NCBI RefSeq assembly: GCF_018100785.1
Contig: NZ_JAGJEC010000001.1
Coordinates: forward strand, 868,001 to 932,000
DNA length: 64,000 nt
DNA from: Maribacter sp. MMG018
GTDB taxonomy: Bacteria; Bacteroidota; Bacteroidia; Flavobacteriales; Flavobacteriaceae
Reading direction: 5' to 3'
The translations under genes and the position numbers were made by a program. Below the pieces are notes generated by a model, which did no database searches, was not told the origin of the DNA, and saw nothing but the letters and a program-made list of their open reading frames with translations. Shown piece after piece: positions 10,895-39,174 of this stretch. Position 1 is the first letter of the stretch. Every line of letters begins with the position of its first letter.

Positions 10895-12319
10895 TTAGCT
10901 TAGTTCCCATCCTTTTCGGTAACTGCCTTTTACCCATTCATTGGCTTTATCCCAATTGGTTACTTTCATGTTATCACCGTCCCATAGAATTTTACGACGG
11001 CCCGGGTATTCAAAAGGATCCCAATCGCCCAATTTTTTACCTGGTTTCAATTTTTTGTACTGGAATGCCTTTATGGCCAAGTTACCCATCAAAACAGCTT
11101 CTGTCAATGGACCAGAGCGTTTAAAATCAGAAGAGGTTTCTTTTCCTTCCAAACATCCTTCCACAAAATTACGCTGATGTCCTCCCGTATCACCTTCTAT
11201 TCTTTTTAGATAGGGTTTTGGCGGGGTCAACAGCTCCATGGTGCTAGAAGGCAATAACCTTGCATTTCTAGAATAGGTATCACAAACCAAAATGCCCCTT
11301 GTACCATAAAAAATACTTCCACCGCCACTATCGCCAATAGTTTCGCCGTCTTTTAGCTCATCGGGCAGGTCGGGCAGTAAACCACCGTCATACCAGTTAA
11401 GGGCTACGTCTCCGTGCTCGGCGGTATTGAATTTTAATCTTACTATCGAAGAAGCAGGGCAAGATTCACTATAGTCGGCCTCAACAAAATCACCTACCCA
11501 ATTGGTAGTGCAACTTGCTTCCGCCTCTGTAGGATAACCAAGGTCTAAAACACTAAAAGGAGTTTCCATGATATGACAGCCCATATCGCCTAGGGCACCT
11601 GTGCCAAAATCCCAGAATCCTCTCCATTTAAAAGGAAGGTAGGCATCGTTGTAATCTCTCATTTGCGCGGTACCCAACCATAAATCCCAATCCAATCCTT
11701 TTGGTATACGATCTTTACCCGTGGGCAGGGGTACCCCTTGTGGCCATACGGGCCTGTTTGTCCAGCAATCTACTTTGTATACCTTGCCTATAATTCCAGA
11801 TTTTATCCATTCTTTTGCTTCACGGCTACCATCACTAGAGGCTCCTTGGTTGCCCATTTGCGAAATGATTCCGTTTTCTTTGGCCACCTTGGTCATTATC
11901 CTGGCCTCGTTTATATTATGTGTCAAGGGTTTTTCAACATACGCATGTTTTTTGGCCCGCATAAATGGGAGCGCAATACTTGCGTGCATATGATCTGGAG
12001 TGGCAACCATGATAGCATCGATATCTTTCAGTTGCTTGTCATAGACTTTTCTAAAGTCCTTATATCTATTTACATCCGGAAACTTTTTGTACGTTTCTGC
12101 CGCTCGCCTGTCGTCTACATCACAGAAAGAAACGAATTTTACTTTTTTGGTCTCGTGTAATCCTTGAATAACACCTGCTCCACGACCACCGACCCCAAAG
12201 GCCCCCATGTAAAGGGTGTCACTGGGTGGAACATGGGTTTTGCCCATAACAAAACTGGGCACAATGGTAAATGCCGCCGATGCTGTTGCGGCGTTTTTGA
12301 TAAATTTTCTACGTTGCAT
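10895..12319 (-). CDS. Tat-exported Gfo/Idh/MocA-family oxidoreductase
   Basis: This 474-residue protein has a twin-arginine signal (QRRKFIKNAA, then a hydrophobic stretch to about residue 26). A Rossmann domain follows with the nucleotide loop GVGGRGAG, and the family Lys-Pro motif EKPLTHN lies near residue 134, where the lysine normally takes part in catalysis. The C-terminal part is the substrate-binding beta-sheet domain. Such proteins oxidise or reduce sugars using tightly bound NAD(P). Export of a folded cofactor-loaded enzyme by Tat suggests a periplasmic sugar oxidoreductase. It is a single gene with its own terminator and a 270-base divergent region upstream. It may act with the keto-sugar island at 26565-39174, but it is 14 kb away and this link is inference. 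Confidence 0.88.
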   Translation of the reverse strand: MQRRKFIKNAATASAAFTIVPSFVMGKTHVPPSDTLYMGAFGVGGRGAGVIQGLHETKKVKFVSFCDVDDRRAAETYKKFPDVNRYKDFRKVYDKQLKDIDAIMVATPDHMHASIALPFMRAKKHAYVEKPLTHNINEARIMTKVAKENGIISQMGNQGASSDGSREAKEWIKSGIIGKVYKVDCWTNRPVWPQGVPLPTGKDRIPKGLDWDLWLGTAQMRDYNDAYLPFKWRGFWDFGTGALGDMGCHIMETPFSVLDLGYPTEAEASCTTNWVGDFVEADYSESCPASSIVRLKFNTAEHGDVALNWYDGGLLPDLPDELKDGETIGDSGGGSIFYGTRGILVCDTYSRNARLLPSSTMELLTPPKPYLKRIEGDTGGHQRNFVEGCLEGKETSSDFKRSGPLTEAVLMGNLAIKAFQYKKLKPGKKLGDWDPFEYPGRRKILWDGDNMKVTNWDKANEWVKGSYRKGWELS

Positions 12320-19860: not shown

Positions 19861-20445
19861 TTACTGGTTAAAAAGCTCATTTATGTTCGCGGCGAACAAT
19901 TTAACGGCTATGGCCATTAGAATAACGCCAAATACCTTCCTGATTACGTTGACACCGTTTTTTCCTAGAATTTTTTCCAGTTTTGTGGATGACTTAAGAA
20001 CTATATAAACAAAGATTATGTTTATAACGATGGCAATGATTATGTTTTCAACATTATACTCGGCCCGTAAAGAAAGTATAGAAGTCAATGTACCCGCACC
20101 GGCTATTAAAGGAAAAGCTATGGGTACAATGGAAGCACTTTCGGGCTCGTCGTCTTTGTAGATAGTAATGCCCAATATCATTTCAATGGCCAAGAAAAAA
20201 ATAATAAAAGCACCTGCTACGGCAAAAGAATTAACGTCTATACCAATTAAATCGAGTATTTCTTCCCCTAAAAATAGAAACGCGACCATAATGCAGGCGG
20301 CCACTACGGAAGCTTTTTCAGATTGTATGTGGCCTACCTTTTTTCGTAAGCCAATAATGATAGGGATACTTCCTAAAATATCAATAACTGCAAATAATAC
20401 CATACTGGCCGTTGCAATCTCTCTTAAGTCAAAATTAAGGGTCAT
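19861..20445 (-). CDS. MarC-family inner membrane protein
   Basis: This 194-residue protein with about six transmembrane helices matches the MarC family by length and by LFAVIDILGSIPI near the N-terminus, GEEILDLIGI, and PIAFPLIAGAGTL. The function of MarC proteins is not settled; the early link to multiple antibiotic resistance was withdrawn. It is transcribed away from the DUF3109 gene, with a -7-like element at 20460-20467. Confidence 0.9.
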   Translation of the reverse strand: MTLNFDLREIATASMVLFAVIDILGSIPIIIGLRKKVGHIQSEKASVVAACIMVAFLFLGEEILDLIGIDVNSFAVAGAFIIFFLAIEMILGITIYKDDEPESASIVPIAFPLIAGAGTLTSILSLRAEYNVENIIIAIVINIIFVYIVLKSSTKLEKILGKNGVNVIRKVFGVILMAIAVKLFAANINELFNQ

Positions 20446-26564: not shown

Positions 26565-27482
26565 TTAAAGGAAGCTGTCTACATTTATATAGGCATCTAT
26601 AACCGCCTGTTCTCCTTCTTTACCTGTTTTAGAATTACCGTGCTCCATACCTAGAACTCCTTCGAATCCTTTTTCGTAAATCCATTTGAGTACATTTTTG
26701 TAGTTGATCTCACCCGTTGTTGGTTCTTTGCGCCCAGGGTTGTCACCTATCTGTATGTATCCAATTTCGTCCCAAGTAAGATCCATGTTATGGATCAGGT
26801 GGCCTTCGGTCTTCTGCATATGGTATATATCGAACAAGATTTTACATGCGGGACTGTCAACTCCCTTGCATATCATATAGGTCTGGTCTGAATTTTGTAA
26901 GTACAGGTCGGGTGAATCGGAAAGGGGTTCCAATACCATGGTAAGGCCATGGGGTTCCAAGATTTCCGCGCCTCTTTTTAAGGCCTCGATAACATTGCCA
27001 TCTTGTACACCAATGGGCAAACTTCTTTCAAACGCACCAGGTACAACGGTCATCCATTTGGCATTGACCCTTTTTGCAACTTCAACGGCACGTTTGCAGC
27101 CATCTAAGAATATATCAATATTTTCTTTTTTTCCAGCGGCCAAGGTATTGGCCATGTTGCCGCCTTTGTCAATTACAAAAACACCCATGGTCATTCCTCG
27201 TTTTGCAAGGGTTTCGCCAATTTTGGTCTGCATGGCAACATCTCTTTTCATCATTCCGTTATCCTCAAAGGCGGTAAAACCTTGGTCGGCCATAAAGTTA
27301 ATCTGGTCAATGGGGTCTTTTCCGGCCAGCTCTTTGAACATGCCCAGATGAGGTGCATATTTTAAATTAAACTTATGGGGTTCTGATATCTTTCTGGTTT
27401 CATGGGCAAAGCTCAGTGCTCCCCCGAATGATAGGGCTCCTCCTGTAAGAGCAGATTTTTGAATAAAACTTCTTCTTTTCAT
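26565..27482 (-). CDS. Hydroxypyruvate isomerase-like TIM-barrel protein, Tat-exported
   Basis: This 305-residue protein starts at ATG 27482 with a twin-arginine-type signal (KRRSFIQKSA, then a glycine-rich hydrophobic region). The rest is an AP-endonuclease-2/hydroxypyruvate-isomerase TIM barrel. Metal-site segments are visible: VLEPLSD, LFDIYHMQ, QIGDNPGRKEPTTGEINY and GMEHGNS. The GR-x-EP-x-TGEINY element is characteristic of hydroxypyruvate isomerases. Export suggests a periplasmic sugar isomerase or keto-sugar enzyme instead of the glyoxylate pathway. It lies downstream of the GMC dehydrogenase pair, separated by a terminator hairpin. Confidence 0.85.
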   Translation of the reverse strand: MKRRSFIQKSALTGGALSFGGALSFAHETRKISEPHKFNLKYAPHLGMFKELAGKDPIDQINFMADQGFTAFEDNGMMKRDVAMQTKIGETLAKRGMTMGVFVIDKGGNMANTLAAGKKENIDIFLDGCKRAVEVAKRVNAKWMTVVPGAFERSLPIGVQDGNVIEALKRGAEILEPHGLTMVLEPLSDSPDLYLQNSDQTYMICKGVDSPACKILFDIYHMQKTEGHLIHNMDLTWDEIGYIQIGDNPGRKEPTTGEINYKNVLKWIYEKGFEGVLGMEHGNSKTGKEGEQAVIDAYINVDSFL

Positions 27483-27529
27483 ATGGTTGTTGAATAAGAG
27501 GTTATTGGTTTTGTTTTTTGTGCAAAGCA

Positions 27530-27568
27530 AAAGAGTTAAAGGAGGTGATTACCTGCCTTTAACTCTTT
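27530..27568. terminator. Intrinsic terminator after the GMC operon
   Basis: Perfect 13-base arms (AAAGAGTTAAAGG and CCTTTAACTCTTT) enclose an inner AGGT/ACCT pairing. On the minus strand a T-rich sequence follows. It lies after the small-subunit gene and before the isomerase gene, so the isomerase may be expressed by read-through or its own promoter. Confidence 0.7.
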
Positions 27569-27594
27569 ATTGTACATGTGTTTATTATTCTTGT

Positions 27595-28242
27595 TTACAG
27601 AGACCAAGCTTTTCCTTGGGAAAGTTCTTGGGCATCTCCACAACCAATATATTCTCCTGGAACGGGAAGATAGGCCAAAACCTCTTCTCCTACATATTCA
27701 GAGGTTTTATACCCCCAAATTGTTAGGCCTCGTAGATTGTTTGCAAAGGCAAAACGAGCGGTTCCGTCATCTAATGTAGCAGATTTTCCTTCTGCTATCG
27801 CCTCATTATAGGTGGTTATGGATTCGAACATTTTGGCCTGATCATCTTTAGAAGTTTTAAGGGCACTTGCCAAGACAGGTTCTAGATCTTCAGGAGTAAG
27901 ATCCTGTGCATTTTCTTTTCCAGAATCTTTTAACGCCTTGTCTATAAATTTGCCCATGGTCATTTTAAAGAAATCCTGATTTTCTTTTTCCATAACATCT
28001 TGGGAAAACTTGTCGATAAAAAGATCCACCTGTACCTCTGATGCTGAAAGCGTATCGGTCTTGGGGATGATGATATCCACCAGTTTGGTAATAACGCTGC
28101 CTTCGGCCTGCGTAAAAAATTCAGGCGTCCATTGGGCAACGGTTTCCCCCTTACAACTTTGCATGATACTTATAAGGGTAGGAGTCGCCACGGTATATCC
28201 CATGGCAAGTCCCATATTTTTGAGTGCTTTTCTTCTATCCAT
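27595..28242 (-). CDS. Gluconate 2-dehydrogenase subunit 3-family small subunit with Tat signal
   Basis: This 215-residue protein belongs to the small-subunit family found with FAD-GMC sugar dehydrogenases. A twin-arginine head (DRRKALKNMG) and a hydrophobic stretch ending in IMQSC, which may also be a lipobox, indicate export. In related glucoside 3-dehydrogenases the small subunit carries the signal and brings the signal-less flavoprotein across the membrane. Its ATG overlaps the stop of the GMC gene by one base, so the subunits are translationally coupled. Confidence 0.88.
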   Translation of the reverse strand: MDRRKALKNMGLAMGYTVATPTLISIMQSCKGETVAQWTPEFFTQAEGSVITKLVDIIIPKTDTLSASEVQVDLFIDKFSQDVMEKENQDFFKMTMGKFIDKALKDSGKENAQDLTPEDLEPVLASALKTSKDDQAKMFESITTYNEAIAEGKSATLDDGTARFAFANNLRGLTIWGYKTSEYVGEEVLAYLPVPGEYIGCGDAQELSQGKAWSL

Positions 28243-29954
28243 TATATATTTCCTTTTTTAAGTTCTTGAACTGCGTGGTTTGCCGCTCTAGCCGTAAAGG
28301 CCATATAGGTCAATGATGGGTTTACGCAGCTAGAAGAGGTCATAAACGATCCATCGGTAACATATACATTAGGTACATCGTGTAATTGATTATGTCCGTT
28401 TAGTACAGATGTTTTTCTGTCTCTACCCATTCTTGCAGTACCCATTTCATGAATTCCAAGACCAAGGCCAGTTGGTCCATCATGTCCTTTTACATCTTTG
28501 AATCCGGCTTTTTCCAACATTTCAACAGCAGATTCCTGCATGTCTTTACGCATGTTGAATTCGTTTTCTTGAAGATCTGCATCAAAAGTAACGGTAGGTA
28601 GGCCCCATTGATCAAGTTTGTCGTAATCAAGGGTGAATCGATTGTCTTGATAAGGGAGTACCTCACCAAACCCGCCAATACCCATTCGCCATCCTCCGGG
28701 CTTCAAAATATTCTCTTTCAGGTCTTTTCCATAGGCAAGCTCTGCAACCGTTTCTTCCCAGTTGCCCCTACTGGCACCTCCTTGGTAACCGAATCCACGT
28801 TTATAGTCTTTTCTGTTTGAAGAACCACCAAGGTTTCTAAATCTTGGAATATAGACACCATTCGGTCTTCTGCCTTTGTAATATTTGTCGTCATAGCCTT
28901 CAAATACACCACTGGCACCTACCCCTAAGTGGTGGTCCATGATGTTACGGCCCAATTGATCGGAATCGTTGCCCATACCATTAGGGAAACGGTCAGATCT
29001 TGATTGCATTAAGATAGATGTAGAGGCGATCGCAGAGGCGCAAAGGAAAATTACCTTGGCCTTGAACTCGTATTTTTCTTTGGTCACCCTATCTATTACT
29101 CTTACCCCCGTAGCTTTTTTAGTATCTGGGTCGTATATTACTTCATGTACTATAGAATCTGGTCTAAGGGTCATGTTTCCGGTAGCTTCCGCAGCCGGAA
29201 GTGTAGAGGAAAGACTACTGAAATAACCTCCAAAAGGACAACCTCTGATACATCTGTTTCTAAATTGACATTTTGTTCTTCCGTCGAAAGTTTTATCTCC
29301 CGTAATATGGGCTACTCGGCCCACGGTAACGGCTCGGTCATCAAAGGATTCCATTACCTTGTTCTTAAAGTGGTCTTCTACACAGTTCAGATCCATAGGC
29401 GGAAGAAAATCACTGTCCGGTAATTGAGGAAGATTAAGTGCTTCTCCACTAACCCCGATAAAATTTTCTACTTTGGAGTACCATGGGGCAATATCCTTAT
29501 ATCTAACGGGCCAGTCTACGGCAATGCCATCTCTTTGGTTTGCGGTAAAGTCGATATCGCTCCAACGATAACTTTGGCGACCCCATTGTAACGATCGTCC
29601 TCCAACGTGGTAACCGCGCATCCAATCGAAACGTCTTATTTCATTATAAGGATGTTCCAAATCGTTTACGAACCACATATGGCTGGCTTGGTTGGTCGTA
29701 TAGCCGGTTCTGTGTTGTTTGGGCTGCTTCTCTATGATTTCTTTAGTAGCAACGCCACCGTTAGGAAAATCCCAAGGGTCTTTGTTGGCCGTGACATAAT
29801 CATCGATATGCTTCACCATCCTTCCCCTTTCGAGAACAAGGGTCTTCAATCCGTTTTCACATAATTCTTTAGCGGCCCATCCTCCGCTAATACCTGTTCC
29901 GACAACAATCGCATCATACGATTCTTGTTCTTCGTTATAATAAAATTTGCTCAT
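28242..29954 (-). CDS. GMC-family FAD sugar dehydrogenase (glucoside 3-dehydrogenase-like)
   Basis: This 570-residue flavoprotein has the FAD-binding loop GTGISGG (residues 19-25), LERG for the ribose, and the GMC catalytic pair: His in GIHEMGTARMG and Asn in SSSCVNPSLTYMAF. A cysteine cluster C229-x5-C235-x3-C239 (CQFRNRC.RGCPFGG) resembles the iron-sulfur site of FAD-dependent glucose and glucoside dehydrogenases. There is no signal peptide; export would rely on the coupled Tat small subunit. Together they probably oxidise a sugar or glycoside, plausibly at C3, passing electrons to the respiratory chain. No cytochrome subunit is adjacent. Confidence 0.88.
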   Translation of the reverse strand: MSKFYYNEEQESYDAIVVGTGISGGWAAKELCENGLKTLVLERGRMVKHIDDYVTANKDPWDFPNGGVATKEIIEKQPKQHRTGYTTNQASHMWFVNDLEHPYNEIRRFDWMRGYHVGGRSLQWGRQSYRWSDIDFTANQRDGIAVDWPVRYKDIAPWYSKVENFIGVSGEALNLPQLPDSDFLPPMDLNCVEDHFKNKVMESFDDRAVTVGRVAHITGDKTFDGRTKCQFRNRCIRGCPFGGYFSSLSSTLPAAEATGNMTLRPDSIVHEVIYDPDTKKATGVRVIDRVTKEKYEFKAKVIFLCASAIASTSILMQSRSDRFPNGMGNDSDQLGRNIMDHHLGVGASGVFEGYDDKYYKGRRPNGVYIPRFRNLGGSSNRKDYKRGFGYQGGASRGNWEETVAELAYGKDLKENILKPGGWRMGIGGFGEVLPYQDNRFTLDYDKLDQWGLPTVTFDADLQENEFNMRKDMQESAVEMLEKAGFKDVKGHDGPTGLGLGIHEMGTARMGRDRKTSVLNGHNQLHDVPNVYVTDGSFMTSSSCVNPSLTYMAFTARAANHAVQELKKGNI

Positions 29955-30130
29955 AGAAACTGTTTATTCCCTAAATTTATTAAATATTAAATTAATTCTA
30001 TACATTTATTCTTTATTCTTCTTGCGAATATGACATCATTATAGATGTTTGTTGTGTTTAAAATTCATAGAAAAAGAAGGATAAATAAAATTAAATCAAT
30101 TAGTTAACAAATAGAATAACCAGCGATTAA

Positions 30131-31123
30131 ATGAAAAGAAGAAATTTTATTAGAAAGACCGCCGTTGCCGGTGTAGGGGTATCATTTTTGGGTACCTATG
30201 CATGTAAAGAGGCTAAAAAGGAAAATAAAAATGCCGTGGAAGCGGAAGGGGCCACTGAATTGGCCAAGCCGTTTTTTGAATTGTCATTGGCCCAATGGTC
30301 TATTCATAGAATGATCAGGGAAGAAGGCGTGGATCCATATACCTTTGCTGAAAAGGCTAAAAATTGGGGATTTACAGGGTTAGAATATGTTAGTCAATTA
30401 TACAACCCCGAACTGTCGGACGCCAATTATTCTGAAGAAGCTATGGCCGCATTTGTAGAAAAATCCAATGCCGAAGCGAAAAAGCATGGAATGAAAAATG
30501 TTTTGATCATGATCGATGGGCAGGGGAATTTGGCTGTTAGTGATGAGGCAGAAAGAAACGAAACGGTAGAAAAACATAAAAAATGGGTAGATGCAGCTGC
30601 AGCGATGGGTTGCCACTCTATACGTGTAAACCTAAACGGTAGTAACGATCCCGAGGAATGGAAGAAGAATTCTGTTGACGGACTCACAAAACTAGCTACC
30701 TATGCAAAAGAAAAGAACATTAATATTTTGGTTGAAAATCATGGAGGTCTTTCTTCTAACGGGGCCTTGCATGCTGAGGTAATGGCGATGGTAGATATGG
30801 ATAACTGCGGTACATTGCCCGATTTCGGTAATTTCTGTATCACAAGAAAACCCGATAGTTGGGACTGTGAGGTAATGTACGACAAATACAAAGGTGTTAA
30901 AGAGCTGATGCCGTATGCAAAGGCGGTAAGTGCTAAATCCAACGTTTTCGACGCAGAAGGCAACGAGGTAGAGATAGATTATGTTAAGATGTTGCAGATG
31001 GTGAAAGATGCCGGGTATACCGGTTTTATTGGTGTAGAATATGAAGGAAAAGAACTTAGCGAAGAAGAAGGCATAAAAGCTACACGTGATTTATTGTTAA
31101 AAGCGGCTAAAGCAGTTGTTTAG
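30131..31123 (+). CDS. Sugar isomerase/epimerase-like TIM-barrel lipoprotein
   Basis: This 330-residue TIM-barrel protein has a Tat-type head (KRRNFIRKTA) and a lipobox (GTYAC) near residue 25, so it is probably a membrane-anchored lipoprotein exported folded. Barrel metal-site segments include ILVENHGG, TLPDFGNFC and GVEYEG. It resembles the xylose-isomerase-like/hydroxypyruvate isomerase family, whose members in keto-sugar clusters act as isomerases or hydratases. It is divergent from the GMC operon and starts the operon DinB-MFS-Gfo/Idh. Confidence 0.87.
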   Translation: MKRRNFIRKTAVAGVGVSFLGTYACKEAKKENKNAVEAEGATELAKPFFELSLAQWSIHRMIREEGVDPYTFAEKAKNWGFTGLEYVSQLYNPELSDANYSEEAMAAFVEKSNAEAKKHGMKNVLIMIDGQGNLAVSDEAERNETVEKHKKWVDAAAAMGCHSIRVNLNGSNDPEEWKKNSVDGLTKLATYAKEKNINILVENHGGLSSNGALHAEVMAMVDMDNCGTLPDFGNFCITRKPDSWDCEVMYDKYKGVKELMPYAKAVSAKSNVFDAEGNEVEIDYVKMLQMVKDAGYTGFIGVEYEGKELSEEEGIKATRDLLLKAAKAVV

Positions 31124-31140
31124 TAAAGCTTTGATTTGTT

Positions 31141-31584
31141 ATGAAAGTATTCTTTAATGAATTGTTCGACTACAATTTTTATTGTAACAAGAAAATTATA
31201 GACGAGTGTGTTAAACTAGGTAAAGCTCCTGAAAAAAGTCAGGAGCTTTTTAGTCACATTCTAAACGCACATCATATATGGAACTCAAGAATTTTGGGAA
31301 AACCTTCGGAATATGATGTATGGCAAAAACATGACATTAAAGATTGGTCCGATATACATTATGAAAACCAAAGAAATTCATTTGAAATAACTACAAATGC
31401 AGATGAATTCGATAAACGTATCGACTATGAGAATTCTAAAGGTAGGCTGTTTACCAATACCTTACAGGACATGCTCTTTCATATTATAAATCATTCAACA
31501 GCCCATAGAGGGCAAATTTTAACAGATTTTAGAAACAATGGGGTCGACCCCATTGTTATGGATTATATTTTTTATAAAAGATAA
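31141..31584 (+). CDS. DinB-family protein
   Basis: This 147-residue DinB/YfiT-fold four-helix protein has the three histidine metal ligands of the family: an early one in LNAHHIW (residues 41-46) and the pair in HIINHSTAHRGQI near residue 120. DinB proteins include metal-dependent thiol transferases and hydrolases of unknown substrate. It lies 17 bases after the TIM-barrel gene and 7 before the MFS gene, so it is in the operon. Its 3' end carries a 24-base perfect palindrome. Confidence 0.87.
   Translation: MKVFFNELFDYNFYCNKKIIDECVKLGKAPEKSQELFSHILNAHHIWNSRILGKPSEYDVWQKHDIKDWSDIHYENQRNSFEITTNADEFDKRIDYENSKGRLFTNTLQDMLFHIINHSTAHRGQILTDFRNNGVDPIVMDYIFYKR
31534..31557. repeat. 24-base perfect palindrome inside the DinB gene
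   Basis: AACAATGGGGTC followed by GACCCCATTGTT is perfectly self-complementary without a loop. It codes for NNGVDPIV near the DinB C-terminus and lies 35 bases before the MFS start codon. It could be a protein-binding site or form a strong RNA hairpin between the two cistrons. Confidence 0.8.
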
Positions 31585-31591
31585 ATAGATT

Positions 31592-32821
31592 ATGAGTATT
31601 GGAGTAAGAGCACAATTATGTGTTATGATGTTCTTGGAATTTTTTATATGGGGAGGTTGGTTCGTAACCCTTGGTACCTTTTTAGGTAATAATATACAGG
31701 CCTCGGACGGTGAAATCGCCTTGGCATTTTCTACACAATCATGGGGAGCTATTATAGCTCCTTTTATTATAGGTCTCATAGCCGATAGGTATTTTAATGC
31801 GGAAAGAATTTTGGGTGTTTTACACCTGTTGGGTGGCGTGTTATTATACCTTATGTACGGCACTGAATCTTTTAGTGTTTTTTATCCTTATGTATTGGGT
31901 TATATGATATTATATATGCCGACGCTGGCATTGGTGAATTCGGTTTCATTTAACCAAATGAACAATCCGGCCAAAGAGTTTTCTGTTATACGGGTCTTTG
32001 GTACCTTGGGATGGATAATCGCGGGCTTGCTGATCAGTTATTTGTTTAAATGGGATTCGGATGTCGGTATCTCCAACGGTCTTTTAAAGAACACCTTTTT
32101 AATGACTGCCATTGCTTCTTTGGTATTGGGCGTGTTTAGCTTTACATTGCCTAAAACACCACCTAGGGCAACAAGTTCCGAGAAATTGAACCTGCAGGAA
32201 ATTTTAGGTTTGGATGCCTTAAAATTGTTTAAGGACAAGAATTTTCTTGTTTTCTTTATTTCTTCTGTGTTGATATGTATACCGCTGGCCTTCTATTACC
32301 AGAATGCCAACCCTTTCTTGGTGGAAATAGGAATGCAGAACCCCACAGGAAAAATGACGCTAGGGCAGATTTCCGAAATTCTATTCATGCTTTTGCTGCC
32401 TTACTTTTTTACCAAATTCGGATTTAAAAAAACCATAATGGTTGCCATGTTGGCCTGGGTGGTCCGGTATATTTTGTTTGCCTACGGTAATGTCGGAGAG
32501 CTTAGTTTTATGTTGTTGCTGGGTATTGCCCTGCATGGTATCTGTTATGACTTTTTCTTCGTTTCCGGTCAGATATACACAGATAGTAAGGCCGGAGAGA
32601 AATTTAAAAGTTCGGCCCAAGGGCTTATTACCTTGGCGACCTATGGCGTGGGGATGTTAATAGGATTTTGGATCGCCGGTAACATTTCAAATAGCTATTT
32701 GTTGAGTGATGGTACTCACGTTTGGGACATTATTTGGTTGTATCCGGCCGGTTTTGCATTTATAGTTTTGATTTTGTTTTTGCTTTTGTTCAAAAAAGAA
32801 AAAATAGACTATAAGTCTTAG
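31592..32821 (+). CDS. MFS transporter of the nucleoside:H+ symporter (NupG-like) family
   Basis: This 409-residue protein has twelve predicted transmembrane helices. It starts with the family signature LCVMMFLEFFIWGGWFV and includes SFNQMNN near helix 4 and LLGIALHGICYDFFFVSGQ near helix 10. NupG-type permeases move nucleosides, but in Bacteroidota this clade is often linked to Gfo/Idh and TIM-barrel sugar genes, as here, which suggests a sugar or keto-sugar substrate. It probably imports the product made by the periplasmic enzymes of this island. Confidence 0.87.
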   Translation: MSIGVRAQLCVMMFLEFFIWGGWFVTLGTFLGNNIQASDGEIALAFSTQSWGAIIAPFIIGLIADRYFNAERILGVLHLLGGVLLYLMYGTESFSVFYPYVLGYMILYMPTLALVNSVSFNQMNNPAKEFSVIRVFGTLGWIIAGLLISYLFKWDSDVGISNGLLKNTFLMTAIASLVLGVFSFTLPKTPPRATSSEKLNLQEILGLDALKLFKDKNFLVFFISSVLICIPLAFYYQNANPFLVEIGMQNPTGKMTLGQISEILFMLLLPYFFTKFGFKKTIMVAMLAWVVRYILFAYGNVGELSFMLLLGIALHGICYDFFFVSGQIYTDSKAGEKFKSSAQGLITLATYGVGMLIGFWIAGNISNSYLLSDGTHVWDIIWLYPAGFAFIVLILFLLLFKKEKIDYKS

Positions 32822-32870
32822 AATTTTTATAAATTGAAAACTTGATAAAACTTAAAAATAAGATTACAAC

Positions 32871-34010
32871 ATGCCAAAGAAGATTAGATTAGGAATATTA
32901 GGAGGAGGAGGAGATTCCCTTATCGGGGTTTTACACAGGGTAGCTTCACAAATAAACGATAATTACCAGATAACGGGTGCGGTATTCAATCCTGATTATG
33001 AAAAGAATTTAGATTTTGCCAAAGAGATAGATGTTCCTTTAGATAGAATATATAAAGATTTTGATACCCTTGTAGAGGAAGAATTGAAATTGCCTGAAGA
33101 TGAACGTATACAGGTGTGTTCTGTTCTTACGCCTAATTTTTTGCATTTTCCAATGGCCAAAAAATTGTTGGACAACGGTTTTCATGTGATTTGTGAAAAA
33201 CCTATGACCACAACTTTGGAAGAGGCCAAGATTTTGTTGGAGGCCCAGCAAAAATCAGGTGCCGTCTTTGCCCTGACACATACTTATACAGGGTATCCTA
33301 TGGTACGGCAGATGAGAGAAATGATAAAAGCCGGCGAAATTGGTAAGATCCATAAGGTAGATGCACGGTATTATCAAGGCTGGATAAACGAAATAATCCA
33401 TGATAAGGACAAACGTAATTCTGTATGGCGCCTAGACCCCAAAAAGGCTGGTATTAGTTCTTGTATGGGTGATATTGGGGTACATGCCTTTAATATGGTA
33501 GAGTATACTACGGGGTTAAAAGTAAAATCTGTTCTTTGCGATTTTAATTACCTTTACGATGACAACCAAATGGATGTGGACGGTACCGTACTTATTAGAA
33601 TGGGAGACCATGTAAAAGGGGTTATTCGTGGTAGCCAAGTCGCAACAGGAGAAGAAAATGGCCTTGCCATCGCTATTTATGGAGAAAAAGGAGCTTTTAG
33701 ATGGGAGCAAGAAAATCCGAATTTCCTATATAAATTAAGTGATACCGAGCCGGTACAGATATACAAACCAGGGCATGCCTATAACTCTGAACTGTCATTG
33801 GACGGTACTAAGTTACCTGCAGGACACCCAGAAGGTATTTTTGATTCTATGGCCAATATTTACTTAGGCGCTGCACGTGCTATAAGGGGAGAAAAATACA
33901 ATGATGGCGAGTTTCCGACCATTGTTGATGGTGTAAGGGGTATGGACTTTATTGTGTCTACCGTAGAATCCAATAAGAACGGTAATACATGGGTCGCCTT
34001 AGAAGACTAA
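32871..34010 (+). CDS. Gfo/Idh/MocA-family oxidoreductase, cytoplasmic
   Basis: This 379-residue protein has a Rossmann N-terminus (ILGGGGDSLIG), the catalytic Lys-Pro motif CEKPMTTTLEEA near residue 107 and a C-terminal sugar-binding domain with GDIGVHAFNM, whose His is a frequent catalytic residue. There is no signal peptide, so it acts in the cytoplasm with NAD(P). It would oxidise or reduce a sugar, plausibly a 3-keto sugar after uptake by the MFS permease 49 bases upstream. The operon ends with a perfect terminator. Confidence 0.9.
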   Translation: MPKKIRLGILGGGGDSLIGVLHRVASQINDNYQITGAVFNPDYEKNLDFAKEIDVPLDRIYKDFDTLVEEELKLPEDERIQVCSVLTPNFLHFPMAKKLLDNGFHVICEKPMTTTLEEAKILLEAQQKSGAVFALTHTYTGYPMVRQMREMIKAGEIGKIHKVDARYYQGWINEIIHDKDKRNSVWRLDPKKAGISSCMGDIGVHAFNMVEYTTGLKVKSVLCDFNYLYDDNQMDVDGTVLIRMGDHVKGVIRGSQVATGEENGLAIAIYGEKGAFRWEQENPNFLYKLSDTEPVQIYKPGHAYNSELSLDGTKLPAGHPEGIFDSMANIYLGAARAIRGEKYNDGEFPTIVDGVRGMDFIVSTVESNKNGNTWVALED

Positions 34011-34032
34011 GGTCGAACAAATAGTAAGTAAT

Positions 34033-34061
34033 AAAAAAAGGGCGTTTAAACGCCCTTTTTT
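34033..34061. terminator. Perfect bidirectional intrinsic terminator
   Basis: A run of seven A, GGGCGTTTAAACGCCC and a run of six T form a fully symmetrical hairpin. It lies between the Gfo/Idh gene and the convergent ASCH gene and can stop both. Confidence 0.9.
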
Positions 34062-34064
34062 ATT

Positions 34065-34523
34065 TTAAAATACCTTTTTAAATTCTTGGCAAACAATGAT
34101 CATACTATCTCTTGGTTCGCGTCCAAAAGACCCTAGTTCTCTGGTGTAGTATTCCCAATGCACCTTTTTCCAATAGGCAAGACTTTTATCCCCTTCACCT
34201 TCTTTTTCGGCATATGATTCGTTAATACTAAAGTAAGGTCGTAATGTTACCGATGTTAATTGAATGATACATTGTGCTTCTCCCTCCCAATTTGTAATTA
34301 CTATAAAGTCTCCTATTTTGGGCAATTTCTCTTTTCTATGCTGTATACCCAATAAAGAACTGGAAAAGGCCTTTTTAATACCTTTTTTCGTTAAATCGGC
34401 ACAATTGTTGGCATCTTGTTCGTTATCATAAAAATGCATGGTCTTGGGGGCTTCGTGGAATGCATCTTCTAGATGTTTGTCCAAATAATCTCCCCACATG
34501 TTTCTTGCCGAAGTATTTTCCAT
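34065..34523 (-). CDS. ASCH-domain protein
   Basis: This 152-residue protein has the ASCH fold signature: GIQHRKEKLPKIGDFIVITNWEGEAQCII, with the conserved basic and aspartate positions, and a C-terminal YYTRELG segment. ASCH domains bind RNA or nucleic-acid bases, and some are amidohydrolases of N4-acetylcytidine. It is a cytoplasmic single gene lying between sugar-metabolism operons, with no visible functional link to them. Confidence 0.87.
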   Translation of the reverse strand: MENTSARNMWGDYLDKHLEDAFHEAPKTMHFYDNEQDANNCADLTKKGIKKAFSSSLLGIQHRKEKLPKIGDFIVITNWEGEAQCIIQLTSVTLRPYFSINESYAEKEGEGDKSLAYWKKVHWEYYTRELGSFGREPRDSMIIVCQEFKKVF

Positions 34524-34635
34524 AAAAGTTAGTGTTTACAACGAGTGTAATTTACTTTCAAAAGAAAGAAAATTCAAAACTTCCAATATAATTAAATCGA
34601 TATTTTATAATCTAATAACGTTTTATCGTTTCTTT

Positions 34636-36339
34636 TTAAGAGAACTTACCTGTTTTTAACGCTTTGGCGGCATGGTTTGCAGCTCTGGCGGTAAATGCCA
34701 TATAGGTCAATGATGGGTTTACACAACTAGAGGACGACATAAAGGCACCATCGGTAACATACACATTTGGTACTGTGTGTACTTGGTTGTGTTTGTTTAC
34801 GATAGATGTTTTCGGGCTATGACCCATACGGGCACCTCCCATTTCATGAATTCCCAATCCTGGCCCAGAAGACTCTTCGTAAGGTTGAACATCTTTAAAA
34901 CCGGCCGCTTTGAACATTTTTACGATTTCTTTTTTAATGTCTTTTCGCATGTTGTATTCGTTCTCCTTGAACTCTACATCAAAATCTAATTGGGGAAGGC
35001 CCCATTTGTCTTTTTCGGTTCTACTCAGCGTAACCCTATTATCATCATACGGTAAGAACTCTCCGAAACCGGTGACACCGATTTGCCATTTTCCAGGCCT
35101 TAAAATTTGCTCTTTTAAGCCTTGGCCGTAACCAAGTTCTGCCACCGATTCAGACCAATCTTGGCGACTTGCAGTACCTTGGTAACCAAAGCCCCTGAGG
35201 TATTCTTCTCTTTTTGTCTTTTCGTCGAGGTTTACAAATCGGGGAATATAGAAACCGTTGGCCCTTCGGCCTTTATAATATTTTTCTAAATAACCGTCAA
35301 CTTTTGCCGTTGCCCCTAATTTATAATGATGGTCCATAATACCTCTTCCCAAGGCATCTGAATCATTGCCCAGACCATTTGGAAAACGTTCCGATTTTGA
35401 TTGTAGCAAAATACCTACCGAAGCCATTGCAGATGCACATAGAAATATCACTTTTGCCTTAAACTCTAGTTTTTCATGTGTTTCTGCGTCTATTACCTTT
35501 ACTCCTGTCGCTTTTTTGGTAGTGTCGTCGTAGATGACTTCATATACGATGGAGTTAGGTCTTAAGGTCATGTTTCCGGTGCGTTCCGCTGCTGGTAGCG
35601 TAGATGAGTTGCTGCTAAAATACCCCCCGAACGGACAACCTCTTGAGCATCTGTCACGGTTTTGGCAAGTTCCCCGGCCTTCTATATTTGCATTTGGATC
35701 CGTAATATGGGCCGTTCTTCCAATGGTGATCAACCGACCATCATCAAATTTCTCTGCAGTAATTTTTTTAAAGTCTTCCTCTACACAATTAAGTTTCATG
35801 GCAGGCATGTATTTGCCATCGGGCAACTGCTTAAGGCCAAGATTTTCGCCGCTAACCCCTATATATTCCTCTACCTTGTCGTACCATGGTGCAATGTCCT
35901 TATATCTAACGGGCCAATCTACCCCAATGGATTCTTTTTTGTTCGCTTCAAAATCGATATCGCTCCAACGATAACTTTGACGGCCCCAAGTAAGCGATCT
36001 ACCACCGACTTGGTAACCGCGGATCCAATCAAAACGCTTGGTCTCTACATAAGGATGTTCTAGGTCGTTTACAAAAAAATGCTTGTTGTCATCTTTTGGC
36101 GCCCATAAAACACGGCTTTGTACGTGGTATTTTTTTTTGTCTTCTTTAGATAGTTCCCCTTTGTTGGGGTAATCCCAAGGGTCATCGTTCATGGTCGGAT
36201 AATCTTTGATGTGGGTAACCATGGGTCCACGTTCCAATACGAGGGTCTTTAGTCCGTTTTCAGTAAGTTCTTTGGCTGCCCAACCTCCACTAATTCCTGT
36301 GCCAACCACAATGGCATCGTATATTTCATCCTGATTCAT
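34636..36339 (-). CDS. Second GMC-family FAD sugar dehydrogenase, no small subunit beside it
   Basis: This 567-residue protein is closely similar along its length to the GMC enzyme at 28242-29954. It has the FAD loop GTGISGG (residues 14-20), LERG, the cysteine cluster C225-x5-C231-x3-C235, the catalytic His in GIHEMGGARMG and the Asn in SSSCVNPSLTYMAF. No small subunit or signal peptide is present. It may share the small subunit encoded 6.4 kb away or work in the cytoplasm. It is divergent from the isomerase and DUF1080 operon, with 160 bases between starts. Confidence 0.88.
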   Translation of the reverse strand: MNQDEIYDAIVVGTGISGGWAAKELTENGLKTLVLERGPMVTHIKDYPTMNDDPWDYPNKGELSKEDKKKYHVQSRVLWAPKDDNKHFFVNDLEHPYVETKRFDWIRGYQVGGRSLTWGRQSYRWSDIDFEANKKESIGVDWPVRYKDIAPWYDKVEEYIGVSGENLGLKQLPDGKYMPAMKLNCVEEDFKKITAEKFDDGRLITIGRTAHITDPNANIEGRGTCQNRDRCSRGCPFGGYFSSNSSTLPAAERTGNMTLRPNSIVYEVIYDDTTKKATGVKVIDAETHEKLEFKAKVIFLCASAMASVGILLQSKSERFPNGLGNDSDALGRGIMDHHYKLGATAKVDGYLEKYYKGRRANGFYIPRFVNLDEKTKREEYLRGFGYQGTASRQDWSESVAELGYGQGLKEQILRPGKWQIGVTGFGEFLPYDDNRVTLSRTEKDKWGLPQLDFDVEFKENEYNMRKDIKKEIVKMFKAAGFKDVQPYEESSGPGLGIHEMGGARMGHSPKTSIVNKHNQVHTVPNVYVTDGAFMSSSSCVNPSLTYMAFTARAANHAAKALKTGKFS

Positions 36340-36499
36340 CCTTAAAATTTTATCTTTTTCTGATGGTATTTCCTATATTTATAAATTGTCGGCAAACAAA
36401 TAAAGAAATACATAAATATTTCTCTAAATATAGTGTTTATTCACATATTTATAATTGGCAGATTAACAACAACATATAATAATAGATAGTAAATAAAGC

Positions 36500-37552
36500 A
36501 TGAAAACAATTAAGGGACCGGGAGTATTTTTAGCACAATTTGTTGATAGCAAACCACCGTTCAATAGCTTGGACGGATTATGCAAATGGGCTTCGGATTT
36601 GGGATATAAGGGAATTCAAATTCCTACATGGGAAAGTTTTTTGATTGATTTGGACAAAGCTGCCGAGAGCCAAGTGTATTGCGATGAGCTAAAGGGCAAG
36701 ATCAACTCTTATGGGCTGGAGATAACCGAATTGTCCACACATTTGCAAGGGCAATTGGTAGCGGTACATCCTGCATATGATTTAATGTTCGATTCTTTTG
36801 CCCCAAAAAATGTTCACAACAACCCTAAAGCAAGAACAGAATGGGCGGTAGAAACCGTTAAAAAGGCCGCAACGGCCAGTAGAAGACTGGGGTTGTCGTC
36901 ACATGCTACTTTTTCAGGTTCTTTGTTGTGGCATACAATGCATCCATGGCCGCAAAGACCTGCCGGATTGGTAGAGATGGGCTTTGAGGAACTTGCCAAA
37001 AGATGGATGCCGATATTAAACCACTTTGATAAGGAAGGTGTAGATGTTTGTTACGAGATACACCCAGGAGAGGACTTGCACGACGGTGATACTTTTGAAC
37101 GCTTTTTAGAGGCTACAAATAACCATAAAAGAGTAAATATACTCTATGATCCAAGTCATTTTGTATTACAACAATTAGATTATATAGAGTATATAGATTT
37201 CTATCACGAGTTTATAAAGTCTTTCCATGTCAAGGATTCCGAATTTAACCCTACGGGAAAAAAAGGAGCTTTCGGAGGATACAACGATTGGGGCAACCGT
37301 GCCGGTCGTTACCGTTCTTTGGGTGATGGACAAATAGATTTTAAAACCATCTTTTCCAAATTAACCCAATATGGTTGTGATGTATGGGCGGTTATGGAAT
37401 GGGAATGTTGTATAAAAAGTCCGGAACAAGGTGCTAGGGAAGGAGCTGTCTTTATTAAAGATCACATCATAGAGGCTACCGAAAAGACCTTTGATGATTT
37501 TGCCGGTGCTGAAATAGACAAAGAGATGCTTAAAAAAATGTTGGGAATTTAA
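36500..37552 (+). CDS. Cytoplasmic sugar isomerase/epimerase-like TIM-barrel protein
   Basis: This 350-residue TIM-barrel protein lacks a signal peptide. Metal ligands are visible at the barrel mouth: Glu in CYEIHPGED, Asp and His in LYDPSHF, His in SFHVKDSE and Glu in VMEWEC. The pattern matches the sugar phosphate isomerase/epimerase (xylose-isomerase-like) family. It opens the operon with the two DUF1080 lipoproteins (15 and 29 base gaps). In characterised keto-sugar pathways such barrels act as hydratases or isomerases of the released sugar; here that role is inference. Confidence 0.88.
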   Translation: MKTIKGPGVFLAQFVDSKPPFNSLDGLCKWASDLGYKGIQIPTWESFLIDLDKAAESQVYCDELKGKINSYGLEITELSTHLQGQLVAVHPAYDLMFDSFAPKNVHNNPKARTEWAVETVKKAATASRRLGLSSHATFSGSLLWHTMHPWPQRPAGLVEMGFEELAKRWMPILNHFDKEGVDVCYEIHPGEDLHDGDTFERFLEATNNHKRVNILYDPSHFVLQQLDYIEYIDFYHEFIKSFHVKDSEFNPTGKKGAFGGYNDWGNRAGRYRSLGDGQIDFKTIFSKLTQYGCDVWAVMEWECCIKSPEQGAREGAVFIKDHIIEATEKTFDDFAGAEIDKEMLKKMLGI

Positions 37553-37567
37553 TCAAATCATAGATAC

Positions 37568-38323
37568 ATGAAAAACGTAGTAATGGCAGCCATGCTAACC
37601 CTCTTGGTAATTGGTTGTAAGGAAAAACAAAAAGAGACGAGCACAGAGAAAGCGGAAGAAGTGGTTTCTGAACAAAAAATGCCGTCCGCCGAAGGGGAAT
37701 GGACCATGATTTTTGATGGCAAATCGTTTAATGGTTGGCATGAGTATCTAAAAGATGGTGTTTCTGAAAACTGGAAGATCGAGGATGGTGCCATGGTTTT
37801 TTATCCTCCAAAGGAGCGAAAGGATGGAGAGCAATTTAATTTAGTCTCCGATACTGAATATACAGATTTTGTGCTTTCGTTGGATTGGCGCATTTCAGAC
37901 GCAGGAAACAGTGGTGTAATGTGGGGCGTTAAAGAATCTCCCGATTTGTCGCAACCTTATTTAACAGGACCCGAAATTCAGGTGTTGGACAACGATAAAC
38001 ATCCAGATGGAAAGAATGGAACCAGCCATCAGGCAGGCGCCTTGTACGATATGGTGCCGCCTTCAAAAGATGTTACCAAACCTGTTGGTGAATGGAATAC
38101 GATGGTCTTTACCGTTAATCATAAAACTAATGAAGGTAACGTTGTCTTAAATGGAGTTGAAATAGTTAAGTTTTCTGTGAACGACCCAGAATGGGGAGAA
38201 ATGGTCTCAAAATCGAAATTTGCCGATTGGGAGCATTTTGCTAAATACACTACAGGAAAATTTGCCTTGCAAGACCATGGTAATGAAGTTGCTTTTAAGA
38301 ATATAAAAGTAAAAGAACTGTAG
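37568..38323 (+). CDS. DUF1080 lipoprotein (3-keto-disaccharide hydrolase family)
   Basis: This 251-residue protein has a lipobox (VIGC) near residue 16 and a charged linker. A single DUF1080 jelly-roll domain follows (about 45-251) with the family signatures MIFDGKSFNGWH, NSGVMWG, GPEIQVLDN, GEWNTMVF and the C-terminal LQDHGNEVAFKNIKV. The family is now called 3-keto-disaccharide hydrolase, because members cleave glycosidic bonds of 3-oxidised glycosides. It is probably in the periplasm or at the surface, acting after the GMC dehydrogenases. The substrate is unknown. Confidence 0.9.
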   Translation: MKNVVMAAMLTLLVIGCKEKQKETSTEKAEEVVSEQKMPSAEGEWTMIFDGKSFNGWHEYLKDGVSENWKIEDGAMVFYPPKERKDGEQFNLVSDTEYTDFVLSLDWRISDAGNSGVMWGVKESPDLSQPYLTGPEIQVLDNDKHPDGKNGTSHQAGALYDMVPPSKDVTKPVGEWNTMVFTVNHKTNEGNVVLNGVEIVKFSVNDPEWGEMVSKSKFADWEHFAKYTTGKFALQDHGNEVAFKNIKVKEL

Positions 38324-38352
38324 ACATCTGTTTTAAACCAAACCAACCGAAC

Positions 38353-39174
38353 ATGAAAAATAATTACATGGCTATCGTATTGATAGCATTATTACTTGCC
38401 TCTTGTCAAGAAAAAGTGAAAGAGGAGGTACAAGAAGAAAAAACAGAAGTGGAGAACAAGGTGATTGTGCATGAAGAGTATAGTGGCACAGAACCTACAA
38501 AGCCAGAAGAAACCGAGTTTTATGAGCCAAAGGTGCCCGTAGTACGCCCAACCTCCCAGAACGGAGCTCCAAGCGATGCCATAGTCCTATTCGATGGTAC
38601 TGATCTGGACCAATGGATCTCTAGTGTAGATAGTACTGCTGCAAAATGGCATTTGAACGATGATGGTAGTATGACGGTGAACAATAAAACCGGTGACATT
38701 CAGACCAAACAGAATTTTGGCGATATTCAGTTACATATAGAGTGGAAGTCACCATTGCCGGTTCAAGGAGAAGGACAGCACAGGGCCAATAGCGGTGTCT
38801 TTTTAAATGGAATATACGAGGTTCAGGTGTTGGACCAAAATGATAATCCTACATATGTAAACGGACAGGTAGCCTCTATTTATAAGCAGCATGTGCCTTT
38901 GGCAATGGCATCGGTACCGACGGGTGAATGGAATACCTACGATATTATATACCATTCCCCTGAATTTAATGACAGGGGCGAAAAGATAAAGTCGGGTACT
39001 ATTACCGTAATACATAATGGTGTTCTGGTACAGGATCATGTTGAGATAAAAGGTACCACCCCATATATAGGCTGGCCTAAGAACCCCGCACATGGCAAAG
39101 GACCATTGCGTTTACAGGATCACAGGGACGATAGTCGTGTAAGTTATCGAAATATATGGGTAAGAGAGTTGTAA
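38353..39174 (+). CDS. Second DUF1080 lipoprotein (3-keto-disaccharide hydrolase family)
   Basis: This 273-residue protein has a lipobox (LASC) near residue 18 and a long Glu/Lys-rich linker of about 50 residues. The DUF1080 domain contains VLFDGTDLDQW, NSGVFLNGIYEVQVLDQ, GEWNTYDIIYH and LQDHRDDSRVSYRNIWV. It differs clearly from its neighbour (insertion after the central strands, GWPKNPAHGKGP loop), so the pair probably has different linkage or sugar preferences. It closes the operon that starts with the TIM-barrel gene. Confidence 0.9.
   Translation: MKNNYMAIVLIALLLASCQEKVKEEVQEEKTEVENKVIVHEEYSGTEPTKPEETEFYEPKVPVVRPTSQNGAPSDAIVLFDGTDLDQWISSVDSTAAKWHLNDDGSMTVNNKTGDIQTKQNFGDIQLHIEWKSPLPVQGEGQHRANSGVFLNGIYEVQVLDQNDNPTYVNGQVASIYKQHVPLAMASVPTGEWNTYDIIYHSPEFNDRGEKIKSGTITVIHNGVLVQDHVEIKGTTPYIGWPKNPAHGKGPLRLQDHRDDSRVSYRNIWVREL

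Follow-up and report, generated by a model that had tools for sequence, protein, structure and literature searches.

In the lactose cluster of Caulobacter crescentus, LacA is a GMC protein and LacB a cytochrome. This lacABC-DUF1080 cluster has been described with supporting genetics, and has been reported for Halomonas titanicae, Algoriphagus and Indibacter as well (PMC9007349). For Agrobacterium tumefaciens, a GlycDH/TAT-AtOGE-AtHYD-Gfo system has been described, in which an FAD dehydrogenase and its TAT protein occur with a putative hydratase, a Gfo protein and a TIM-barrel lyase, OGE (PMC10628242). In Bacteroides thetaiotaomicron (BT2156-BT2160), periplasmic C3 oxidation by the glycoside 3-dehydrogenase BT2158 is reported together with a DUF1080 enzyme, BT2157 (PMC11300592, PMC11501099, PMC9007349); deletion of BT2157 or BT2158 caused no growth defect on raffinose-family sugars (PMC11501099). 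The levoglucosan pathway (LgdA/B1/B2/C) uses separate enzymes for oxidation, elimination, hydration and reduction, and the same paper cites a dye-linked C3 glucose dehydrogenase from Cytophaga marinoflava, a member of the Flavobacteriaceae (PMC7676230). In marine flavobacteria, the GMC proteins of Zobellia AA3 clade A have been proposed as glycoside oxidases, with 53-58% identity to characterized FAD-GO (PMC6950322). Published work already puts forward oxidation and elimination in other bacteria (PMC9007349, PMC10628242) and, in Zobellia, the GMC alone (PMC6950322).

The locus analyzed here lies in a 64,000-nucleotide stretch of Maribacter sp. MMG018 DNA (the window). It resembles the Agrobacterium system in combining an FAD dehydrogenase and Tat small subunit with a predicted hydratase and a Gfo protein, but DUF1080 proteins stand in the place of the TIM-barrel lyase. 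With Bacteroides it shares a DUF1080 enzyme and predicted periplasmic C3 oxidation; the oxidase here is an FAD GMC protein rather than BT2158, which we take for a Gfo/Idh protein because the Gfo proteins of the window match the NCBIfam model of BT2158. Compared with Caulobacter by description rather than by sequence, the locus has no LacB-type cytochrome gene near the GMC, and it contains a second GMC and two DUF1080 genes side by side. The levoglucosan pathway shows the same division of labor, but acts on another substrate, begins with levoglucosan dehydrogenase instead of a GMC, and has no DUF1080 protein among its four enzymes (PMC7676230). The likeness to Zobellia AA3 clade A and FAD-GO is one of description; the available passages do not join those GMCs to a pathway (PMC6950322). 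We recognized no description of the whole cluster in marine flavobacteria in a literature search mostly outside subscription journals. The accessible parts of the Maribacter and Zobellia proteome and transcriptome papers held nothing usable on its expression; a "sugar phosphate isomerase/epimerase" that is up on laminarin in one Maribacter could not be linked to the cluster (PMC11345257, PMC9296495).

Gene content of the locus

A Pfam search with ten proteins, together with a whole-genome search for PF06439, confirmed every part named in a preliminary description of this DNA: two GMC proteins, one Gluconate_2-dh3 protein, three PF01261 TIM barrels, a permease, a Gfo/Idh protein and two DUF1080 proteins. 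That list had omitted two genes, encoding a DinB-like and an ASCH-domain protein (Table 1). The genes lie on both strands, and hence do not form one operon. TIM1 probably starts at the ATG at 27482 rather than the TTG at 27530, as its relatives do. In line with the Tat-type signals previously claimed, twin-arginine motifs can be read by eye in TIM1, TIM2 and G2DH3. The cluster, also as claimed, contains no glycoside hydrolase, SusC or SusD gene; none was seen elsewhere in the window among the open reading frames read from 7.3 kb on (minimum length 120 to 200 aa). Against NCBIfam, none of ten proteins gave a match above the model cut-off.

Table 1. Genes of the locus, with coordinates in the window.
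Gene	Position	Strand	Domain evidence	Description
TIM1	26565..27482	-	PF01261, 4e-29 (Pfam)	Xylose-isomerase-like TIM barrel, hydroxypyruvate-isomerase/epimerase type; Tat signal by eye
G2DH3	27595..28242	-	PF13618, 2.8e-27	Tat small subunit, gluconate 2-dehydrogenase subunit 3 family
GMC1	28242..29954	-	PF00732/PF05199	FAD GMC dehydrogenase, candidate glycoside C3-dehydrogenase
TIM2	30131..31123	+	PF01261	Lipoprotein TIM barrel, exported; fold close to that of CGE/DgpC lyases
DinB-family protein	31141..31584	+	PF05163	
NUP	31592..32821	+	PF03825 (Nuc_H_symport), 2.2e-113	Nucleoside:H+ symporter-family MFS permease
GFO	32871..34010	+	Pfam Gfo/Idh	Cytoplasmic oxidoreductase, candidate 3-keto-hexose reductase
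ASCH-domain protein	34065..34523	-	PF04266	
GMC2	34636..36339	-	Pfam GMC	Second GMC dehydrogenase; no small subunit of its own
HYD	36500..37552	+	PF01261 and 8ro4 match	Cytoplasmic TIM barrel, predicted 2-hydroxy-3-keto-glucal hydratase
DUF1080a	37568..38323	+	PF06439, 168.4 bits	Lipoprotein, predicted 3-keto-glycoside lyase/hydrolase
DUF1080b	38353..39174	+	PF06439, 136.5 bits	Lipoprotein, PF06439 subfamily different from that of DUF1080a

A predicted hydratase and two DUF1080 proteins

The strongest new evidence for a C3-oxidation/elimination pathway is a homology match: HYD aligns over residues 1-350 with residues 1-349 of 8ro4, a solved 2-hydroxy-3-keto-glucal hydratase (E = 3.1e-162, 543 bits), as against 41 bits for a solved IolE chain. 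Conserved in the 8ro4 alignment are E-x-HPG at 186, YDPSH at 216, FHVKD at 242 and EWE, of which the E-x-H, D, H and E are putative active-site residues by analogy with OGE. The preliminary description rightly assigned this third TIM barrel a sugar isomerase-like fold, but overlooked the hydration step that the match predicts. Across 62 relatives, HYD has the highest median identity of the genes compared (91.6%, versus 88.6% for guanylate kinase); if the pathway reading is right, this points to a place in the core metabolism of these bacteria.

Both DUF1080 proteins score above the PF06439 cut-off of 26.8 bits. DUF1080a matches the solved Bacteroides-type chains 8rr2/8tda (5e-35), and DUF1080b matches 4qhz (2.2e-76). 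A conserved QDH histidine (His237, within QDHG, in DUF1080a; His257 in DUF1080b) is found also in the aligned solved chains and, judging by the numbering, would correspond to H275 of the Bacteroides lyase (PMC13273386). PF06439 also includes an endo-xanthanase/lichenase (PMC9007349).

GMC dehydrogenases and the small subunit

The combination of GMC domains and Tat small subunit (Tat by eye) known from the FAD-GO/GlycDH glycoside 3-dehydrogenases is present, and G2DH3 directly adjoins GMC1 in all 80 of 80 relatives. Read by eye, neither GMC1 nor GMC2 has a signal peptide. GMC1 has a candidate catalytic pair (His502 and Asn544) and carries Cys229-x5-Cys-x3-Cys, which we take to be the iron-sulfur motif of FAD-GDH. 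GMC2 forms a clade of its own in the tree and occurs in 47 of 71 loci; it is probably a second oxidase of other specificity, using G2DH3 as a common small subunit. In one GMC row (genome G013), the neighbor is a beta-lactamase-family protein.

A LacB-type cytochrome beside GMC1/G2DH3 was considered as an electron partner and rejected: no credible CxxCH open reading frame of at least 80 aa was found in the 80 loci or between positions 20000 and 45000 of the window, eight short candidates having been dismissed by eye as spurious.

Conservation and co-occurrence

The left flank is complete in 71 relatives; G2DH3, TIM2, GFO and HYD stand beside GMC1 in 61 of them, and so the grouping is not due to chance. 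NUP is found in 57 of these 71 loci and GFO in 66. To gauge co-occurrence more widely, any GMC of the GMC1 group (E up to 1e-120) was counted. In 120 family genomes (119 genera), 55 have HYD and GMC, one HYD only, five GMC only and 59 neither; in 148 genomes from the phylum, the corresponding numbers are 33, 0, 11 and 104 (kinship ignored in both sets). All 56 HYD genomes of the family set contain PF06439, and in 49 of them a GMC lies no more than 20 kb from HYD. Homologous clusters without the dehydrogenases, named in the preliminary description as evidence against its pathway, come down to a single case among these 56: genome G036 keeps a TIM2-NUP-GFO-HYD block, and gave no GMC, PF13618 or BT2158-type match. 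A secreted Gfo of the BT2158 type was tried as the missing oxidase of G036 and rejected (no match at 1e-20).

Plasmids provide independent gene rows, with HYD proteins 58-68% identical to that of the window. Pseudoalteromonas has a compact Gfo-HYD-MFS-DUF1080-GMC-G2DH3-TIM row, Palleronia a row with HYD at 58% identity, and Novosphingobium a row with HYD at 65% and no DUF1080. The Pseudoalteromonas GMC sits on a far branch of the GMC tree, and therefore two GMC lineages have joined the same downstream families. Rhizobium (ABC genes, Gfo, TIM, HYD, second Gfo), Phaeobacter and Pantoea have HYD, but the stretch examined shows neither GMC nor DUF1080 (three of the four plasmid matches inspected from the hydratase search). 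Relatives of GFO with 33-40% identity adjoin the hydratase in Rhizobium, Phaeobacter, Pseudoalteromonas, Palleronia and Novosphingobium, and in Pantoea a 39% NUP relative does so. To their proteobacterial counterparts, the Gfo protein and small subunit of the window are related only distantly.

Proposed pathway and alternatives

Sequence, co-occurrence and independent gene rows together make it probable that the locus serves to break down glycosides through oxidation followed by elimination, not through hydrolysis. The route set out in the preliminary description (periplasmic C3 oxidation, cleavage, import and cytoplasmic restoration) draws support from all three lines, and would run as follows: (i) GMC1/G2DH3, exported via the Tat signal of G2DH3, would act in the periplasm, oxidizing C3 of a glycoside and handing the electrons to the respiratory chain; (ii) DUF1080a and DUF1080b would, by their family, split the 3-keto-glycoside through beta-elimination, TIM2 perhaps taking part, to yield the aglycone plus a 2-hydroxy-3-keto-glycal, or a 3-keto sugar after hydration; (iii) NUP, the candidate permease for the keto sugar or glycal, would bring the product in; (iv) HYD would, on strong homology, hydrate the glycal to the 3-keto sugar in the cytoplasm; and (v) the Gfo/Idh enzyme (1e-89 against 3v5n) would reduce the 3-keto sugar to the hexose there.

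GMC1/G2DH3 might instead be a C1 aldose or polyol dehydrogenase of the FAD-GDH or FDH type, the TIM barrels and Gfo handling its products without elimination cleavage. The nearest solved sequences to GMC1 are indeed fructose dehydrogenase and FAD glucose dehydrogenase, oxidizers of free sugars, and in genome G025 alone a GMC relative and G2DH3 are followed by an SMP-30 gluconolactonase, a neighbor that suggests C1 oxidation by this GMC member. However, G025 itself has no HYD match, Pfam finds no lactonase in the window cluster, and a C3 pathway accounts far better for the HYD/GMC co-occurrence, the adjacent DUF1080 genes and the match to 8ro4; we consider C1 oxidation quite unlikely. A cyclitol (inositol-like) pathway, with HYD as inosose dehydratase, Gfo as inositol dehydrogenase and GMC as polyol oxidase, is very improbable: the matches behind it are weak and far under cut-off (HYD to iolE, 58.1 bits against 290; GFO to iolG, 53.5 against 355), GFO scores highest with the NCBIfam model for levoglucosan dehydrogenase (92.6 bits, likewise far short of the cut-off), HYD matches 8ro4 far better, and we know of no place for DUF1080 proteins in such a pathway.

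The locus could also be two modules that are mere neighbors, with TIM2-NUP-GFO-HYD salvaging 3-keto sugars or glycals from elsewhere in the cytoplasm, next to a separate periplasmic oxidase. The G036 block, the Rhizobium, Phaeobacter and Pantoea plasmids and the six of 56 HYD genomes with the GMC on another contig (all drafts of 30 or more contigs) are in keeping with this. It is nevertheless unlikely, given a GMC in 55 of 56 and 33 of 33 HYD genomes, and the compact rows of Pseudoalteromonas and Palleronia that unite all steps. If oxidation and elimination is the true function, 56 of the 120 Flavobacteriaceae genomes sampled, close to half, would be able to break glycosides by a route that needs no glycoside hydrolase, and HYD with GMC would be a clear marker for predicting the pathway from genomes.

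TIM1, TIM2 and neighboring genes

TIM2 matches 4ovx at 1.8e-80 and DgpC weakly; for its AF2 model (pLDDT 88.6), Foldseek ranks 4ovx first, then DgpC/CGE among many other TIM barrels. E202-N-H204, D231 and E303 are invariant in an alignment of 26, as is Ser267, where HYD and an OGE-like Rhizobium protein have His (AtOGE His189; motifs aligned by eye). TIM2 keeps E202, His204, D231 and E303, and lacks the complete OGE/CGE metal site with its His. It is conceivable, though we consider it doubtful, that TIM2 and 4ovx belong to a hitherto uncharacterized group of lyases for 3-keto-glycosides, periplasmic lipoproteins that have a catalytic His and a metal site altered by the invariant Ser in place of His, acting beside DUF1080 so that two periplasmic lyases and two GMC oxidases would supply one hydratase/reductase pair.

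Neither TIM1 nor TIM2 could be upheld as an OGE orthologue, since neither truly resembles the OGE-like protein of Rhizobium in sequence. In that protein, the His-Asn-His, Glu, Asp and His positions agree with the published AtOGE residue numbers after an offset of 7, except that Glu233 misses by one. TIM1 scores far below the cut-off of the NCBIfam Hyi-like model; the structures nearest its AF2 model (pLDDT 85.3) are 3ngf/1k77 and ketose 3-epimerases. E185, D218, Q244 and E280 are invariant in 23 aligned rows and may bind metal, as in the Hyi site.

The ASCH gene is present in 66 of 71 loci and the DinB-family gene in 63; the DinB-family protein, though a conserved neighbor, probably stands outside the pathway. 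A BT2158-like protein is encoded 14 kb away (window 10895-12319; BT_2158_fam 478.4 bits, below the curated cut-off of 750). In Catenovulum, a 45% relative of TIM1 lies two genes ahead of DUF1080 and GMC.

Gene content and predicted pathway

Every cluster component listed in the preliminary description was recovered from the 4.13 Mb genome (17 contigs) by ORF, Pfam and PF06439 genome searches, together with two additional genes, encoding DinB-like and ASCH proteins. The latter two recur within the cluster in most relatives and have no evident role.

Cluster genes in window order, with a nearby oxidoreductase. Counts are loci, among 71 with ~10 kb of left flank (nine cut loci dropped), with the gene beside GMC1; those for genes close to the flank end are lower bounds.
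Feature	Position	Strand (block)	Loci (n = 71)
TIM1, PF01261 TIM barrel	26565–27482	− (left)	49
G2DH3, PF13618 Tat small subunit		− (left)	71
GMC1, GMC dehydrogenase	28242–29954	− (left)	
TIM2, PF01261 TIM barrel	30131–31123	+	68
DinB-like	31141–31584	+	63
NUP, permease		+	57
GFO, Gfo/Idh		+	66
ASCH	34065–34523	− (second)	66
GMC2, GMC dehydrogenase	34636–36339	− (second)	47
HYD, PF01261 TIM barrel	36500–37552	+ (right)	61
DUF1080a, PF06439 lipoprotein	37568–38323	+ (right)	55
DUF1080b, PF06439 lipoprotein	38353–39174	+ (right)	49
Gfo/Idh, outside cluster	10895–12319		

The earlier proposal that the cluster oxidizes glycosides at C3 and then cleaves them is supported at the sequence level, and further strengthened by identification of a putative hydratase: HYD matches PDB 8ro4, named 2-hydroxy-3-keto-glucal hydratase, over its full length (E 3.1e-162), and has no signal peptide as judged by eye. 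8ro4 is probably the putative hydratase of an Agrobacterium pathway described as comprising an FAD glycoside dehydrogenase with a TAT protein, a beta-eliminase, the hydratase and a Gfo enzyme (PMC10628242). DUF1080a matches solved chains 8rr2 and 8tda (5e-35), presumably BT2157 (the match table states no organism), while DUF1080b belongs to another subfamily and matches 4qhz. Family matches suggest the roles of the permease, Gfo and GMC proteins. The chemistry would consist of periplasmic C3 oxidation, elimination by DUF1080, import, hydration by HYD and reduction by GFO.

Prior work includes BT2158, a periplasmic glycoside 3-dehydrogenase (PMC11300592); a Bacteroides thetaiotaomicron lyase whose H275N variant is hydration-deficient (PMC13273386); Zobellia AA3 proteins proposed as glycoside oxidoreductases (PMC6950322); and a dye-linked C3 glucose dehydrogenase of Cytophaga marinoflava, classed in Flavobacteriaceae (cited in PMC7676230). 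This pathway type is already known, and the cluster therefore adds another case rather than a new type.

TIM1 and TIM2 are the two TIM barrels predicted to be exported. For the TIM2 model (AF2, pLDDT 88.6) the nearest structure is 4ovx, which comes from a planctomycete and has no stated function; DgpC/CGE C-glycoside lyases come next, along with numerous further TIM barrels. Glu202, His204, Asp231 and Glu303 are invariant in a 26-row alignment; Ser267 occupies the place of a His in HYD and an OGE-like protein (motif alignment by eye). Since several relatives lack the twin-arginine pair and Cys25 is listed as kept in at least 90%, TIM2 is best read as a predicted lipoprotein. The TIM1 model (pLDDT 85.3) resembles hydroxypyruvate isomerases and ketose 3-epimerases.

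Conservation and co-occurrence

The small subunit directly adjoins GMC1 in all 80 named relatives compared. These rank highest among at least 582 confirmed stretches and are therefore close kin (best named: Maribacter thermophilus, Flavobacteriaceae, 99%). Three of the 71 flanked loci (L046, L067, L078) lack both TIM2 and GFO in the flank.

A sample of 120 family genomes spanning 119 genera contains HYD in 56 (E ≤ 1e-80) and this group's GMC in 60 (E ≤ 1e-120, a limit that lets in GMC2 and its kin): both in 55, HYD only in one (G036), GMC only in five (G013, G025, G047, G062, G115) and neither in 59. Of the 56 HYD genomes, 49 have a GMC no more than 20 kb from HYD and 6 have the two on different contigs. 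PF13618 is present in 61 genomes. PF06439 reaches E ≤ 0.001 in 75, among them all 56 with HYD, and exceeds its cut-off in 70. In a phylum sample (n=148), all 33 HYD genomes, 26 of them outside the family, carry GMC; 11 have GMC only and 104 neither. Fisher values (8.9e-27 family, 7.6e-24 phylum) ignore kinship.

Some results count against the pathway reading. G036 (locus L083) carries a TIM2-permease-Gfo-HYD block; GMC, small subunit and BT2158-type oxidase were not found at the thresholds used. In G025 a gluconolactonase follows the GMC–small subunit pair, so homology to the GMC is by itself no proof of C3 oxidation. A CxxCH ORF scan revealed no cytochrome gene next to GMC: the 80 loci yielded eight ORFs, judged spurious by length, position and sequence, and the scanned window stretch yielded none.

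Plasmid-borne rows in other lineages

Seven of 60 listed plasmid matches were opened, four from the hydratase search and three from the GMC search. The former gave a Pseudoalteromonas row in one direction (Gfo-HYD-MFS-DUF1080-GMC-small subunit-TIM), and Rhizobium, Phaeobacter and Pantoea HYD loci with GMC and DUF1080 absent from the stretch viewed. The latter gave rows from (i) Palleronia (HYD-Gfo-ABC transporter-two TIM-GMC-small subunit-DUF1080), (ii) Novosphingobium (Gfo-HYD-small subunit-GMC, without DUF1080) and (iii) Catenovulum (TIM-heme protein-DUF1080-GMC-small subunit, the TIM a 45% relative of TIM1; HYD absent from the stretch viewed). HYD identity to the window protein is 68% (Pseudoalteromonas), 58% (Palleronia) and 65% (Novosphingobium), with Gfo at 35–40% in these three. 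BLAST gave no match between the MFS, small subunit or TIM of the Pseudoalteromonas row and their window counterparts; the GMC of this row groups in the tree with the fourth GMC of the window's own genome, remote from other GMCs. These rows are independent assemblies of the predicted pathway genes.

Other candidate loci

The Gfo/Idh protein 14 kb from the cluster carries a Tat signal (by eye) and scores 478 bits against the BT2158 glycoside 3-dehydrogenase model, below the cut-off of 750; it may be a C3 oxidase of a second type encoded in this region. Elsewhere in the genome, at L085 (C10:236000–250000), the fourth, distant-type GMC and its PF13618 subunit are accompanied by genes for a TIM barrel and a secreted Gfo and by a GH130-like gene; this may be another 3-keto-glycoside locus. 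At L087 (C11:199000–215000), DUF1080 and a BT2158-like Gfo form a row with a 1062-aa protein that combines DUF7133, cytochrome c and GDSL-lipase domains. In two compared loci (L081:3370–6765, L082:3007–6399), ~1130-aa proteins that carry HEAT repeats and end in a DUF1080 domain directly precede GMC and the small subunit.
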